The notes under the pieces: generated by a model
What the model was told of the DNA's origin: nothing
Seen by the model: the letters and a program-made list of their open reading frames with translations, nothing else
The model's database searches: none
Part shown: positions 46,658 to 53,997 of the stretch, piece after piece
How the letters are laid out: every line of letters starts with the position of its first letter
Position numbering within the stretch: position 1 is the stretch's first letter
Made by a program: the position numbers and the translations under genes
Assembly (NCBI RefSeq): GCF_003323745.1
Contig: NZ_QOIL01000018.1
Span: 124,001-188,000 of the forward strand
Source: Sphaerisporangium album
GTDB lineage: Bacteria > Actinomycetota > Actinomycetes > Streptosporangiales > Streptosporangiaceae
Direction: 5' to 3'
Length of the DNA stretch: 64,000 nucleotides

Positions 46658-49009
<2,352 letters not shown>

Positions 49010-49173: not shown

Positions 49174-49626
49174 TCACGTGGGCAGGGGACGGTCGTTCAC
49201 CACGTGCTTCATCACCAGGGTGGAGTTCAGGCGTTGCACGCCCGGCAGCGCCGACAGGATGTCGTCCTCCAGGCGCTGGTAGGCGCCCAGGTCGGCGGTG
49301 ACGATGCGCAGCAGGTAGTCGGGGTCGCCGAACAGCCGCTGCGCCTGCACCACCTCCGGCACCCGCGCCACCGCCGCCTCGAACCCCAGCAGGGTGTCGC
49401 GGTCCTCCTGGCGCATGGTGACGAACACCAGTGCCTGGAACCTCAGGCCGAGGGCGTCGGCGTCCACCACGGCCCGGTACCCGCGGATCGCGCCGCCGCG
49501 CTCCAGCTCCCGCAGCCGGCGGTGGCACGGCGAGACGCTCAGCCCGACCCGCGCCGCCAGTTCGGTGATCGTCAGACGGCCCTCCTGCTGGAGCACGGCA
49601 AGAATCTTCCGATCAATGCGGTCCAT
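49174..49626 (-). CDS. Lrp/AsnC-family regulator
   Basis: 150 residues from the ATG at 49626. HTH: RKILAVLQQEGRLTITELAARVGLSVSPCHRRLREL in two parts; C-terminal RAM/ACT domain (VPEVVQAQRLFGDPDYLLRIV). Divergent from a LysE exporter, which it probably activates in response to an amino acid. Confidence 0.92.
   Translation of the reverse strand: MDRIDRKILAVLQQEGRLTITELAARVGLSVSPCHRRLRELERGGAIRGYRAVVDADALGLRFQALVFVTMRQEDRDTLLGFEAAVARVPEVVQAQRLFGDPDYLLRIVTADLGAYQRLEDDILSALPGVQRLNSTLVMKHVVNDRPLPT
49605..49616. promoter_or_regulatory. TCTTCCGATCAA repeat, copy 1
   Basis: Lies inside the start of the Lrp gene; identical copy at 49699-49710, 94 bp away. Candidate Lrp binding sites. Confidence 0.4.
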
Positions 49627-49661
49627 ACGGAAGATGCTTCCACGAACGGTCGCTTCTCGGG

Positions 49662-49682
49662 CGAAAGTTGGAAGCACTTTCG
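49662..49682. promoter_or_regulatory. Palindrome CGAAAGT-N7-ACTTTCG
   Basis: Perfect 7-bp arms midway in the Lrp/LysE divergent promoter. Probable Lrp operator. Confidence 0.6.
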
Positions 49683-49731: not shown

Positions 49732-50349
49732 GTGGCCGCCGCTTCCGTGTTCGCCTTCTGGGCGGTCGCGCTCCTGCTCATCGTCGTCCCGGGCGCCGAC
49801 TGGGCGTTCACCATCAGCGCCGGACTGCGCGGCCGTCCGGTCTACCCGGCGGTGAGCGGGCTGGTCGTCGGCTACGCGGCCGTCACCCTCGTCGTCGCGG
49901 CCGGAGTCGGCGCGCTGGTCGCCCGATCGCCGGCCATCCTCACCGGACTGACCCTGGTCGGCGGCCTGTACCTGATGTGGCACGGGGCGAGCACCTTCGC
50001 CCGCCCCTCGGCCCCGGGCACTCCGGCGGCAGGCCCGGCCGGCACCGACTGGGACACCTTCGTCAGGGGCATCGGCGTCAGCGGTCTCAACCCCAAGGGC
50101 CTGCTCGTCTTCCTCGCCCTGCTCCCCCAGTTCACCGACCCGCACGGAGCCTGGCCCGTCGCCGGGCAGATCCTGGTCCTCGGGCTGGCGTTCATGGCCA
50201 CGTGCGCCGTCTTCTACCTCTGCCTCGGCTCGGTCACCCGCACCGTCCTGCACGGCCGCCCCGCCGCCGCCCGCGTCATCGGCCGCCTGTCCGGAGCCGC
50301 CATGATCGGCATCGGCGCCTGGCTGCTCGTCGGCCACATGCTCACCTGA
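49732..50349 (+). CDS. LysE/RhtB-family amino-acid exporter
   Basis: 205 residues from the GTG at 49732, about six membrane segments. LysE signature near the N-terminus (LLLIVVPGADWAFTIS) and SGLNPKGLLVFLALLPQF. Exports an unknown amino acid or related metabolite; the divergent Lrp regulator supports this. Confidence 0.9.
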   Translation: MAAASVFAFWAVALLLIVVPGADWAFTISAGLRGRPVYPAVSGLVVGYAAVTLVVAAGVGALVARSPAILTGLTLVGGLYLMWHGASTFARPSAPGTPAAGPAGTDWDTFVRGIGVSGLNPKGLLVFLALLPQFTDPHGAWPVAGQILVLGLAFMATCAVFYLCLGSVTRTVLHGRPAAARVIGRLSGAAMIGIGAWLLVGHMLT

Positions 50350-50524: not shown

Positions 50525-51751
50525 TCATGCGACGGCCGCGTCCCACAGGTCGGTGCTGCGGGAGCGGACGAGGGCGCCGATGCGGGCGAGGGCGTCGGCG
50601 GCGGGCCGGGGATCCAGGCGGCGGCCGTCTCGCAGGCGCAGCGCCACCTCGCCGGTGGCGGCCTCCTTGGCGCCGATCACCGCCTGGTAGGGGACCAGAC
50701 GGGCCTCCCGGACGCGGGCGCCCAGGCTGCCCCGCCCGGGACCGGCGACCTCGGCCCGCAGCCCGAGCTCGGCGCATCGCCGCGCGAGCGCCGCCGCGTC
50801 CGGCAGCTCGTCCTCGGTGATCGGGAGGATCACCACCTGGGTCGGGGCGAGCCAGGCGGGGAAGGCGCCGCCGTGGCGCTCGATGAGGTGGGCGACGGCC
50901 CGCTCGACGCTGCCGATGATGCTGCGGTGCACCATGACCGGCCGGTGCCTGGCGCCGTCCGCGCCGATGTAGTGCAGGTCGAACTGCCGGGGCTGGTGGA
51001 AGTCGACCTGGACGGTGGACAGGGTCGACTCCCGCCCGGCGCCGTCGGCGACCTGGATGTCGATCTTCGGCCCGTAGAACGCCGCCTCCCCCTCGGCCGC
51101 CTCGTACGCCACGCCCGAGCGGTCCAGGACCTCGGTCAGCAGGACGGTGGCGCGCTCCCACATCTCGGGCGCGGCGACGTACTTACCCCCCGGCCCCGGC
51201 AGGGAGAGCCGGTAACGGGCGGCGTCGATGCCGAGCGCACCGTACGCGCGGCGGATCATCTCCAGGGCCGCCCGCGCCTCCTCGGCGACCTGGTCCAGGG
51301 TGCAGAAGATGTGCGCGTCGTTGAGCTGGATGGCGCGTACGCGGGTCAGCCCGCCGAGCACGCCCGACGGCTCCGAGCGGTACATGCCGCCCAGCTCGGC
51401 CATGCGCAGCGGCAGCTCGCGGTAGCTGCGGGAGCGCGAGCGGTAGATCACGGCGTGGTGGGGGCACAGGCTCGGCCGCAGGACGACCTGCTCGGACCCG
51501 AGGTCCATCGGGGGGAACATGTCGTCGCTGTAGTGGGACCAGTGCCCGGAGATCTCGTACAGCTCCCGTTTTCCGAGCACCGGCGAGTACACGTGCCGGT
51601 AGCCGGCCCGCCGTTCGGCGTCGCGGATGTACTCCTCCAGGGTGTGGCGCACGATCGCCCCGTCGGGCAGCCAGTAGGGCAGCCCCGCGCCGATCAGCGG
51701 GTCGGTGTCGAACAGGCCCAGCTCGCGGCCGAGCTTGCGATGGTCGTGCAT
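50525..51751 (-). CDS. thrS: Threonyl-tRNA synthetase lacking TGS and editing domains
   Basis: 408 residues from the ATG at 51751 (GAGGAG site). It starts directly at the catalytic core (DHRKLGRELGLF), so the TGS and N2 editing domains of a normal 650-residue ThrRS are missing. Zinc ligands are kept: Cys in SLCPHH, His in DAHIFC and His in MVHRSIIGS. Motif 2 region YRSEPSGVLGGLTRVRA. A C-terminal anticodon-binding domain (TQVVILPITEDELPDAA) is present. Probably active but unable to remove mischarged serine, and likely a second copy. Preceded by a leader peptide and attenuator-like hairpin. Confidence 0.92.
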   Translation of the reverse strand: MHDHRKLGRELGLFDTDPLIGAGLPYWLPDGAIVRHTLEEYIRDAERRAGYRHVYSPVLGKRELYEISGHWSHYSDDMFPPMDLGSEQVVLRPSLCPHHAVIYRSRSRSYRELPLRMAELGGMYRSEPSGVLGGLTRVRAIQLNDAHIFCTLDQVAEEARAALEMIRRAYGALGIDAARYRLSLPGPGGKYVAAPEMWERATVLLTEVLDRSGVAYEAAEGEAAFYGPKIDIQVADGAGRESTLSTVQVDFHQPRQFDLHYIGADGARHRPVMVHRSIIGSVERAVAHLIERHGGAFPAWLAPTQVVILPITEDELPDAAALARRCAELGLRAEVAGPGRGSLGARVREARLVPYQAVIGAKEAATGEVALRLRDGRRLDPRPAADALARIGALVRSRSTDLWDAAVA

Positions 51752-51790
51752 GGTGGTCTCCTCGCGGGGTGCCGGGCGAGTGACCACAAG

Positions 51791-51824
51791 CCGAAGCCCC
51801 GGGGCACTCGCCCCGGGGCTTCGG
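51791..51824 (-). terminator. Attenuator-like hairpin before the ThrRS gene
   Basis: Perfect 15-bp stem CCGAAGCCCCGGGGC / GCCCCGGGGCTTCGG with a four-base loop, between the leader peptide stop and the ThrRS start. The downstream side (CTTGTGGTCA on the minus strand) has a few T but no long U-tract. Confidence 0.75.
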
Positions 51825-51836
51825 ACTCAGACTGTG

Positions 51837-51887
51837 TCAGCGCGCCGGGACAACCTCCGGCGTCGTCGTCATGGCAGCGCGCTTCAT
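51837..51887 (-). CDS. Threonine-rich leader peptide of the ThrRS gene
   Basis: ATG at 51887 gives MKRAAMTTTPEVVPAR, then TGA, with three consecutive ACG threonine codons (51861-51869). A hairpin CGCCGG/CCGGCG sits just after them within the leader, and CCCGG there can pair with CCGGG of the terminator hairpin. This is the layout of amino-acid transcription attenuation: stalling at Thr codons would favour read-through into the ThrRS gene (inference). Confidence 0.65.
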   Translation of the reverse strand: MKRAAMTTTPEVVPAR

Positions 51888-51991
51888 GCCGCCAACGGTA
51901 GCAGAGCGGTCCGCCGCGCACGCGCCCTTTCCGGGTCTCCCGGTCCGCTTCAGGAGTGTCAGGAGTGCCCGCCTCCCGGCCCCGGCCATTC

Positions 51992-52017
51992 TATTAGCGC
52001 TGTTATATTAGTGCTGT
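51992..52017 (+). promoter_or_regulatory. Direct repeat TATTAGCGCTGT / TATTAGTGCTGT at the MarR start
   Basis: Two 12-bp units, 14-bp period, the second overlapping the GTG start at 52016. Probable MarR autoregulatory site and promoter; translation would be leaderless or nearly so. Confidence 0.55.
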
Positions 52018-52549
52018 GACATATTTGGACCCGACCGCGTCACCCGGACGGTGGGACGCGCTCCACGCCATGCTGGCCGCCCTGGACGCCCAGATCGAGA
52101 CCGTGTACGCCGAGCGGGGCATCGAGGGCGTCCGTCCCCGGTTCGCCTACCCGTTGATCCGACTCGCGCATACCGGACCCCTGACGATCCGCGAGCTCGC
52201 CGAGTCCCTGGGCCGCTCCCACTCCGCGATGAGCCAGACCATCTCGGCGATGCGGCGCGAGGGGCTGGTCGATTCCGAGCCCGGCGCCGACGCCCGTACG
52301 CGCCGCGTCACCCTCACCGGCCGGAGCCGTGCCCTCATCCCCTTCCTCGAGGCCGAGTGGCGCGCGACCGAGGCCGCCGTGGCCGAGCTCGACGAGGAGG
52401 TGCCGCACGCGCTCAGCGCCGTCGTCACCGAGCTGACGCGCGCCCTGGAGCGGCGGCCCATGCGCGACCGCATCCTCGCCCACCTCGTCGAGCCCGCCGC
52501 CGGGCCGGCGCGGACGGACACCTCCGCGCCGATCGACCCGTCCTCGTGA
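52016..52549 (+). CDS. MarR-family regulator
   Basis: 177 residues from the GTG at 52016. Winged HTH: LTIRELAESLGRSHSAMSQTISAMRREGLVDSEPG with wing DARTRRVTLT. Stop overlaps the MFS start (GTGA). Probably represses the operon with the transporter. Confidence 0.9.
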   Translation: MTYLDPTASPGRWDALHAMLAALDAQIETVYAERGIEGVRPRFAYPLIRLAHTGPLTIRELAESLGRSHSAMSQTISAMRREGLVDSEPGADARTRRVTLTGRSRALIPFLEAEWRATEAAVAELDEEVPHALSAVVTELTRALERRPMRDRILAHLVEPAAGPARTDTSAPIDPSS

Positions 52550-53997
52550 CCTGGCGCGAGCGGCTCGTCGACCTGCGTCCCCTCCGTGCCAGCCGGCCGT
52601 TCCGCGACCTGTGGATCGGCTCCTCCCTCGCCGGGATCGGCGCGCAGATCGCCTCGGTCGCCGTCCTGCTCCAGGTCTGGGAGCTGACCCGCAGCCCGGT
52701 GTGGACCGGCGGCATCGGCCTCGCGACGGCACTGCCCATGCTGGTGTTCGGGCTGGCCGGCGGGGCGCTGGCCGACGTCGTCGACCGCAGGACGATCGTC
52801 CGGGTCACCACCGCGGGCCACGTCCTCATGGCCGCGGCCCTGGTCGCGCAGGCCGCCGCGGGCAACCGGTCGGTCGTGCTGCTGCTCGTCCTGGTCGCCG
52901 CCCAGTCCGGATGCGCGGCGCTCGGAGCCCCCGCCCGGCGCACCTTTCCCGTCCGGCTGCTCCCCCCCGAGCAGGTCACCGCCGGGCTCGCGCTGCACAA
53001 CATCGCCTTCCAGACCTCCATGCTCGTCGGCCCGGCCCTCGCCGGCATCGTGCTCGCGCAGTGGCGCTACCCGGCCGCGTACGCGATCCAGGCCGTCGCC
53101 GACATCGCCTCGCTGATCGCCGTGATCCGGCTGCCGTCGATGCCCGCCGTGGACTCCGACGACGACCGGCGCCCCGCGCACCGAGGCCGCGAGAAGGGAC
53201 GATTTGAAGACGCACGGCCCGGAGAGGGACCACCCGAGGACGGACGCCCCGGGAAGGATCCGCGCCGGCGCCGCGGCCCGGCTCCGGGCGGATGGCGGAT
53301 CATCGTCCGGCGTCCCGTCCTGTGGGGCGCCTTCGCGACCGATCTCGCCGCCACCGTCCTGGCCATGCCGGTCGCGCTGTTCCCGCTGATCAACGAGATC
53401 CGCTTCGGAGGCGGCCCGCAGACCCTGGGGCTGTTCCTGTCGGCGATCGCGGTCGGCGGGCTCGGGGCCGGGCTGCTGTCCGGGACGGTCACCCGTCTGC
53501 GCCACAGTGGCCGTGTCCAGCTCGTCGCCGCCACGACGTGGGGCCTGGCCCTGGCCGGATTCGGGCTGGCCGGGCCGCTGTGGCTCGCCCTCGGCTGCCT
53601 CACCGTCGCCGGCGCCGCCGACACGATCGCCGTGGTGACCCGAGGCGGCATGGTCCAGCTCGAGACCCCCGACCGCTACCGCGGGCGTGTCTCCTCGGTC
53701 GAGCACGTCATCGGCCTCGCCGGCCCCGAGATCGGCAACTTCCGCGGAGGGCTTCTCGCCTCCCTGACCTCGGCCCCCGTGGCGCTCCTGATCGGCGGCC
53801 TGTCCGCCGCGTTCACCGTCATCACCGTCGGCCTGCTCAACCGCCCTCTACGCGACCACCGCCTGCCGTCCCCGCAGTCGTTCCGACCCCAAGGACGAGC
53901 ACCTACCGGACCAGGGAGCGACACCAATGCCGGCACATGGGCGAACACGCCCGCTGCGGCCGGCGGGCGTCCAAGGCCGCCAACGGGGAAGGGCTGA
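52546..53997 (+). CDS. MFS transporter (enterobactin exporter/drug efflux type)
   Basis: 483 residues from the GTG at 52546. About 12 membrane segments with MFS_3-like motifs: FRDLWIGSSLAGIGAQIASVAVLLQVWELT, GGALADVVDRRTIV, PDRYRGRVSSVEHV. A hydrophilic Arg/Pro-rich loop of about 45 residues splits the two halves (about 198-245). The last 45 residues are Pro/Gly-rich and may be an extension of doubtful value. Confidence 0.88.
   Translation: MTWRERLVDLRPLRASRPFRDLWIGSSLAGIGAQIASVAVLLQVWELTRSPVWTGGIGLATALPMLVFGLAGGALADVVDRRTIVRVTTAGHVLMAAALVAQAAAGNRSVVLLLVLVAAQSGCAALGAPARRTFPVRLLPPEQVTAGLALHNIAFQTSMLVGPALAGIVLAQWRYPAAYAIQAVADIASLIAVIRLPSMPAVDSDDDRRPAHRGREKGRFEDARPGEGPPEDGRPGKDPRRRRGPAPGGWRIIVRRPVLWGAFATDLAATVLAMPVALFPLINEIRFGGGPQTLGLFLSAIAVGGLGAGLLSGTVTRLRHSGRVQLVAATTWGLALAGFGLAGPLWLALGCLTVAGAADTIAVVTRGGMVQLETPDRYRGRVSSVEHVIGLAGPEIGNFRGGLLASLTSAPVALLIGGLSAAFTVITVGLLNRPLRDHRLPSPQSFRPQGRAPTGPGSDTNAGTWANTPAAAGGRPRPPTGKG

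Follow-up and report, generated by a model that had tools for sequence, protein, structure and literature searches.

Split use of threonine codons between a conserved ACG-run leader and an auxiliary threonyl-tRNA synthetase gene in actinomycetes suggests a variant of ribosome-mediated attenuation

What does a short leader reading frame with three consecutive ACG threonine codons sense when it stands before a threonyl-tRNA synthetase gene that itself uses no ACG at all? The question is raised by a locus of Sphaerisporangium album (NZ_QOIL01000018.1, positions 124,001 to 188,000), analysed here as a window, that is, the whole stretch of 64,000 nucleotides, in whose numbering all coordinates are given. 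A sequence-only reading had proposed a ThrRS gene under an attenuator with a Thr-Thr-Thr leader peptide. The association of leader and gene stands and folding is consistent with the alternative RNA pairings of such a device (1:2, 2:3 and 3:4), while the gene is an auxiliary rather than a housekeeping one, the stem before it is not followed by a U-tract, and two elements had been overlooked, a hairpin around the Shine-Dalgarno sequence (H3) and a WblC/WhiB7-type promoter box.

The gene lies on the minus strand (51751–50525, ATG at 51751, stop at 50525) and encodes a protein of 408 residues, named here ThrRS2, that we describe as a catalytic-only auxiliary threonyl-tRNA synthetase. It scores 438.8 bits against the NCBIfam thrS equivalog (TIGR00418, cut-off 383.65) over profile positions 171–548 of 565, and the Pfam domains found are the catalytic core and the anticodon-binding domain, nothing else; the TGS and editing domains appear to be missing. 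A longer frame of 420 residues opens at GTG 51787; that start falls within the leader RNA, and ATG 51751 was taken as the start of ThrRS2. Because a full-length ThrRS (a 672-codon open frame, 42–43% identical to ThrRS2 over the shared part) is present elsewhere in the same genome, ThrRS2 is regarded as an auxiliary synthetase. Upstream of that full-length thrS, an ORF script found no small ORF with a threonine run.

Where the zinc ligands are expected, the alignment shows Cys, His and His retained in ThrRS2, and we take these to be its zinc-binding residues. Glutamine occupies the position of human L567 and E. coli L489, a reported borrelidin resistance hotspot (PMC4389257), in 135 of 138 ThrRS2 sequences. 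Since only 18 of the 28 full-length ThrRS listed carry leucine at the hotspot, and tryptophan takes the place of the histidine at human position 391 in most of these full-length enzymes, possible borrelidin resistance of ThrRS2 is a lead only. A threonyl-tRNA synthetase, SCO3778, is listed as a sigma-E site in ethanol-stressed cells (PMC10771440).

The leader ORF runs from ATG 51887 to TGA 51837 on the same strand and encodes a peptide of 16 codons, MKRAAMTTTPEVVPAR. Its three threonine codons, at 51869–51861, are the candidate sensor and lie, in the consensus fold, in the 5′ arm of hairpin 1:2, a position that may help explain the choice of codon. The earlier description of this run as ACG ACG ACG is correct, and the threonine codons are conserved in relatives, which had been named as a check: of 137 leaders, 133 begin the run with ACG, and every one has ACG as its second and third codon, a requirement of the pattern that located the run and one on which no leader dropped out. 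The entries for the window itself, L084 and L085, and L099, which lies at a contig end, are not among the 137. A later set of 19 leaders has three ACG codons in 17 cases and two in 2. Threonine codons outside the run are ACC in all seven later-set leaders that have one (L335–L354), and ACG in L118 and L123, which makes this side pattern a tendency with exceptions.

Downstream of the run, a block CCGGCGCGCTGA is kept in 134 of the 137 leaders. An indel shifts it out of frame in L096 and L142, altering the tail of the peptide and leaving the RNA unchanged, with the downstream pairing segment (segment 2, described below) retained. Selection on the peptide tail as such is ruled out by these two leaders, and the comparison points to the RNA, not the tail, as the conserved entity.

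The leader and ThrRS2 occur together. Among the 80 closest loci, all from named genomes (mostly Streptomyces, plus Streptosporangium, Microbispora, Saccharopolyspora, Frankia and others), the leader precedes 79; at L013 the hairpin and the gene are present and the leader is absent. A covariance model (R1, alignment A1) was made from 73 of the 80 leaders, the length outliers L017, L018, L036, L041, L043, L071 and L074 being omitted. It matches 59 of 394 genomes of the class at E ≤ 1.9e-7, and ThrRS2 is the next gene after all 58 of these strong matches that have downstream DNA, the 59th ending at a contig end. At E ≤ 0.01 there are matches in 97 of the 394 genomes; 11 weaker places that were inspected (L145–L155, with L086 a duplicate of L151) lack a ThrRS in the neighbourhood and are regarded as chance matches. 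A protein search found ThrRS2 in 62 of the 394 genomes, with the leader before all 60 that have upstream DNA, 58 by the model and two (G200 and G209) by eye, while in G152 and G292 ThrRS2 is cut off upstream by missing DNA. The ThrRS2 of G200 and G209 have 53% identity and still follow a TTTP leader.

Of 150 genomes from the genus to which G363 belongs, presumably Streptomyces, 76 also have ThrRS2. Nineteen of 20 further regions from this genus hold ThrRS2 and all 19 have the leader; the region outside the 19, L336, has a longer ThrRS frame without a leader, in which ACG makes up 2 of 23 threonine codons. Plasmid records of Streptomyces and Kitasatospora (H1–H4 and H6) carry ThrRS2 relatives of 81–87% identity, and a relative of 48.5% identity lies, behind a TTTP leader seen by eye, on a mobilizable plasmid of Mycobacterium intracellulare (L302). 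Because relatives sit on plasmid records, the leader/ThrRS2 unit may be mobile.

Upstream of the leader, a −10 element, TACCGT (51900–51895), ends 7 nt before the ATG. Such closeness makes it likely that the transcript is leaderless, as is reported for the thrL transcript of S. lividans (PMC8079986). With a script that favours 6–7 nt, 117 of the 137 sequences show this 7-nt gap and the other 20 a gap of 6 nt; a freer script, applied to 80 loci, gives 7 nt in 73, 6 in 6 and 5 in 1. A WblC/WhiB7-type AT-rich box, GAAAGG (51931–51926), stands 31 nt before the −10 element and matches imperfectly the published WblC box, GAAAWY at 31–34 nt from TANNNT (PMC7157823). The −35 element of the window is poor. 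The GAAA core, which is the part that was scored, occurs 30–35 nt before the −10 in 81 of the 137 sequences, against a mean of 1.2 and a maximum of 6 in base shuffles, and at the box position in 15 of the 19 sequences of the later set. In S. coelicolor, thrS2 is among the synthetase genes reported as activated by WblC, and wblC itself carries a uORF attenuator (PMC7157823).

The RNA from 51890 to 51752 has a predicted folding energy of −83 kcal/mol (z = −5.5), equalled by none of 200 dinucleotide shuffles. Segment 2 (GTCCCGGCGCGCTGA, 51851–51837) can pair back with the threonine codons (1:2) or forward with 51816–51810 (2:3, the antiterminator). Hairpin H2 (3:4, 51824–51791) is the perfect 15-bp stem noted earlier before the gene (51824–51810 with 51805–51791, loop GAGT). 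It is GC-rich and a candidate terminator; a U-tract was looked for after it in the window and is absent, and termination is not claimed for this reason. With a ribosome modelled at any of the three threonine codons, the 2:3 helix between segment 2 and the 5′ arm of H2 forms in 134 of 134 leaders; with no ribosome, 1:2 forms in 113 and 2:3 in 21; with a ribosome at the stop codon, H2 forms in 133. L052, L095 and L144, which lack a long exact H2 stem according to the script, were omitted from these folds and from the loop swap described below. Since 86.6 of 134 shuffled leaders pass the lenient 2:3 criterion too, the stalled-ribosome folds amount to consistency and not to proof. H1 and H2 are nearly invariant and give almost no covariation for that reason (term −0.54). 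In Rfam searches, the window contains no family at gathering score, and neither the proteobacterial threonine leader nor the T-box is among the 38 sub-threshold matches of 51740–51960.

Beyond H2, the Shine-Dalgarno sequence AGGAG (51762–51758) is enclosed in hairpin H3 (51785–51755), formed by GGTC (51785–51782) with GACC (51758–51755) and CTCGC (51780–51776) with GCGAG (51765–51761). Its 5′ arm includes a switch segment, CACTCGCC (51782–51775), that is complementary both to the Shine-Dalgarno side and to the core of the H2 loop, GGCGAGTG (51812–51805). Across the 73 aligned sequences, the loop pairing is possible in 95.4% of cells, against 34.6–55.2% when one side is slid, and H3 in 94.8%, against 27.3–58.1%. 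For both helices, the paired cells and the covariation score of alignment A1 are reached by 0 of 500 shuffles, and pair changes on both sides are not above shuffles (201 of 500 reach the loop-pairing value and 107 the H3 value). Column pair 97–140 of the loop pairing is G-C in 57 sequences, A-U in 14 and G-U in 2. Exchanging loops and downstream segments among elements, one per non-consensus loop type (n=18), lowers the fit from 17.56 to 14.54 (s.d. 0.56; 0 of 20,000 swaps as good), and exchanging switch segments and Shine-Dalgarno sides (n=40, L074 and L076 omitted) lowers it from 11.5 to 10.62 (s.d. 0.22; 1 of 20,000), although these tests overstate independence because many of the sequences are related. 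The comparisons support covariation of the switch segment with both the loop and the Shine-Dalgarno side. They suggest a switch in which the H2 loop mimics the Shine-Dalgarno side and would take the H3 arm whenever H2 is unformed.

Taken together with the ACG run, this architecture makes it probable, in our judgement, that ThrRS2 is under a ribosome-mediated attenuator responding to slow reading of ACG. The steps that we infer, from stalling to termination, Shine-Dalgarno occlusion and the inducing condition, would be as follows. Transcription would start at or beside the leader AUG. When the leader is read fast, the ribosome would reach the stop codon and cover segment 2, H2 would form and presumably terminate transcription, and H3 would hide the Shine-Dalgarno sequence. 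A ribosome held at the ACG run would instead open 1:2, so that segment 2 became available to the 5′ arm of H2 and H2 would fail to form; the freed loop core would pair with the switch segment, dismantling H3 and releasing the Shine-Dalgarno sequence. A single stall would thereby affect transcription and translation alike, and whether the attenuator does act at both levels we consider about an even question.

Control could instead be purely translational, H2 being no terminator and the leader only setting the hiding of the Shine-Dalgarno sequence by H3. The GC-rich stem is nevertheless present in 134 of 137 elements and followed by T runs in some (L110 and L134), and actinomycete terminators often have no U-tract. 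The missing U-tract after H2 in the window and the covariation of the switch segment with both of its partners speak for a translational device, and the authors of the S. lividans study likewise call termination unclear, given the lack of a U-rich stretch (PMC8079986). On balance we find this account rather unlikely.

Conversely, the device could be a purely transcriptional attenuator of the classical kind, the loop pairing and H3 being by-products of a purine-rich ribosome-binding site. The 1:2, 2:3 and 3:4 geometry is indeed complete on its own, and 16 of the 55 elements with a non-consensus loop would match their downstream segment better with the consensus loop than with the one they have. 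What argues against it is that distant elements alter the loop and the switch segment in concert, both sides of the pairing being changed to GAAC/GTTC in L139, GCAC/GTGC in L130 and GGGT/ACCC in L053, L056 and L110. We hold this account, too, to be doubtful.

The proposed attenuator responding to ACG finds its counterpart in the codons of the gene. All 12 threonine codons of ThrRS2 in the window are ACC, and in 138 ThrRS2 genes ACG makes up 4 of 1,523 threonine codons, compared with 1,694 of 5,349 (31.7%) in flanking open frames, which are frames of at least 250 codons picked by codon-position GC and not annotated genes. In each of the 90 loci with sufficient flank, the gene has a lower ACG fraction than its own flank, and 19 ThrRS2 genes of the later set have 2 ACG among 161 threonine codons. 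Sensor and enzyme thus divide the threonine codons between them: the leader reads ACG and ThrRS2 is written almost wholly with ACC.

Ordinary codon bias of well-expressed genes, unconnected with the leader, could in principle produce such a depletion. Full-length thrS genes from 30 genomes of the family do show a milder tendency (149 of 781 threonine codons, 19%, are ACG, none of the genes lacking it, versus 32% in the flanks of ThrRS2 loci), and the ThrRS2 of L013 is ACG-free even without a leader, which either points to a recent loss of the leader there or weakens the case for a link between leader and codons. Yet thrC, in 30 genomes of the class, is not depleted (248 of 693), and a depletion common to thrC or full-length thrS is ruled out by these counts, both samples coming from other genome draws in which only some genomes hold ThrRS2. 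The G-ending share in the fourfold boxes of Ala, Pro, Val, Gly, Ser, Leu and Arg in ThrRS2 is 0.84–1.08 of that in the flanks, and ACG is altogether absent from 85 of the 88 ThrRS2 genes with at least 10 threonine codons, against 1 of 203 flanking frames. Together these figures leave ordinary bias an improbable explanation. That ACG is shunned in RNA or DNA for some reason other than its reading as a codon, for instance as a nuclease site, is hardly credible and largely refuted, with nothing found in its favour, given that out-of-frame ACG is undepleted in ThrRS2 (53.3 + 8.3 per 1,000 codons against 45.7 + 6.7 in the flanks).

ThrRS2 also tends to contain little threonine (mean 2.7%, against 6.1% in the flanks; the corresponding region of full-length ThrRS has 3.45%), and the proteins of L295, L296, L297 and L301 have just 3 to 5 threonine residues; the range of 0.74–6.95% makes this a property of the mean, not a rule. 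Being nearly ACG-free and poor in threonine, the gene should be translatable in the very state that would induce it. A more specific reading, which we put forward tentatively and rate a little below even, is that the leader senses not threonine but one decoding class of tRNA-Thr, that of ACG (tRNA-Thr CGU and UGU), that ThrRS2 is a rescue enzyme exempt from its own trigger, the triggering codon having been removed from its gene, and that one RNA switch governs both termination and access to the Shine-Dalgarno sequence. If so, the trigger would be an insult that strikes ACG decoding first. Among the typed tRNAs of the S. album genome (3 of 58 tRNA matches are untyped), there is one tRNA-Thr gene each with anticodon UGU, CGU and GGU; a tRNA gene beside ThrRS2 was looked for, and the 64-kb window contains none. 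ACG is not the obvious sensitive codon, because on equal tRNA supply the commoner ACC should be the sensitive one. Selective-charging theory holds that leaders use the starvation-sensitive codon, and the E. coli thr leader has eight ACC codons (PMC1183508). An ACG sensor joined to a nearly ACG-free target in several families offers a natural and clean test of unequal reading of synonymous codons under stress.

In a survey of leuS for a similar split, the script detected a leader at 2 of 30 loci, and its choice of frame seemed wrong in many. Upstream of leuS in L306 and L314 are LLLTGP leaders with CTG and CTT codons, and the leuS frames of these two loci are without CTT.

Several components of this picture are already known, namely a thrL–thrS attenuator, attenuators before trpS and leuS, and control of thrS2 by WblC; no earlier report of either the ACG split or the loop/Shine-Dalgarno switch was found in searches of the open-licence PMC literature. 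The ThrRS2 leader would represent a variant form of ribosome-mediated attenuation and function in the manner of a classical attenuator. The auxiliary TrpRS1 gene of S. coelicolor is said to be controlled by attenuation. Its product is described as auxiliary, indolmycin-resistant and induced (Kitabatake 2002; Vecchione and Sello; as cited in PMC9437257), and attenuators are described before trpS and leuS (PMC1262725). These systems resemble ours in placing a synthetase gene behind a leader with codons for its own amino acid. However, tryptophan has a single codon, which makes a codon split impossible, and drug resistance is described for TrpRS1 but would be conjectural for ThrRS2. In the E. coli thr operon, the attenuator likewise has a threonine codon run in its leader, but there the codon is ACC, while the ThrRS2 leader uses ACG before a target gene nearly purged of it (PMC1183508).

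A close precedent is the thrL–thrS attenuator of S. lividans TK24, for which termination is reported as unclear (PMC8079986). As here, a leaderless threonine leader, MKRVRPFLETTPGFVPAR, precedes thrS, and an identical leader precedes the ThrRS2 gene of L344. That study concerns one strain and a leader with two threonine codons, and the available part of its text makes no mention of conservation, a Shine-Dalgarno switch, ACG depletion or WblC. For threonine operons, a statement of 2005 denies any conserved upstream RNA structure (PMC1262725). The same paper describes the actinobacterial LEU element before leuA, which similarly combines a leader peptide with an alternative pairing that involves the Shine-Dalgarno sequence. 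In the LEU element, as described there, the leucine codon run itself pairs with the Shine-Dalgarno sequence, whereas in the ThrRS2 leader the loop of a separate hairpin would compete for it.

For the WblC/WhiB7 regulon, thrS2 is named as activated, and its likeness to ThrRS2 is by name; the box and its distance match, and the accessible portion of that paper contains no description of a thrS2 leader (PMC7157823). The WblC intrinsic-resistance regulon is suggested to include a starvation-proof synthetase with a possible two-level leader switch. In Anabaena, the ThrRS T2 is a zinc-starvation duplicate (as cited in PMC9437257), which is, like ThrRS2, a second and conditionally needed ThrRS; its trigger differs, and in ThrRS2 the Cys, His and His of the presumed zinc site are all retained in the alignment.

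Around the locus, a LysE-type amino-acid exporter gene (49735–50349, plus strand) ends 175 bp from the ThrRS2 stop codon, and an Lrp/AsnC-type regulator gene (49174–49680, minus strand) is divergent from it. On the other side, divergent from the ThrRS2 promoter, lie genes for a MarR-type regulator (52016–52549, plus strand) and then an MFS transporter (about 52549–53997, plus strand). Further away, an ABC ATPase gene (46658–49009, plus strand) encodes a protein of 783 residues, shorter than a typical UvrA, with a borderline match to the UvrA DNA-binding domain (23.3 against 23.2 bits), and the protein is possibly a UvrA-like paralogue.
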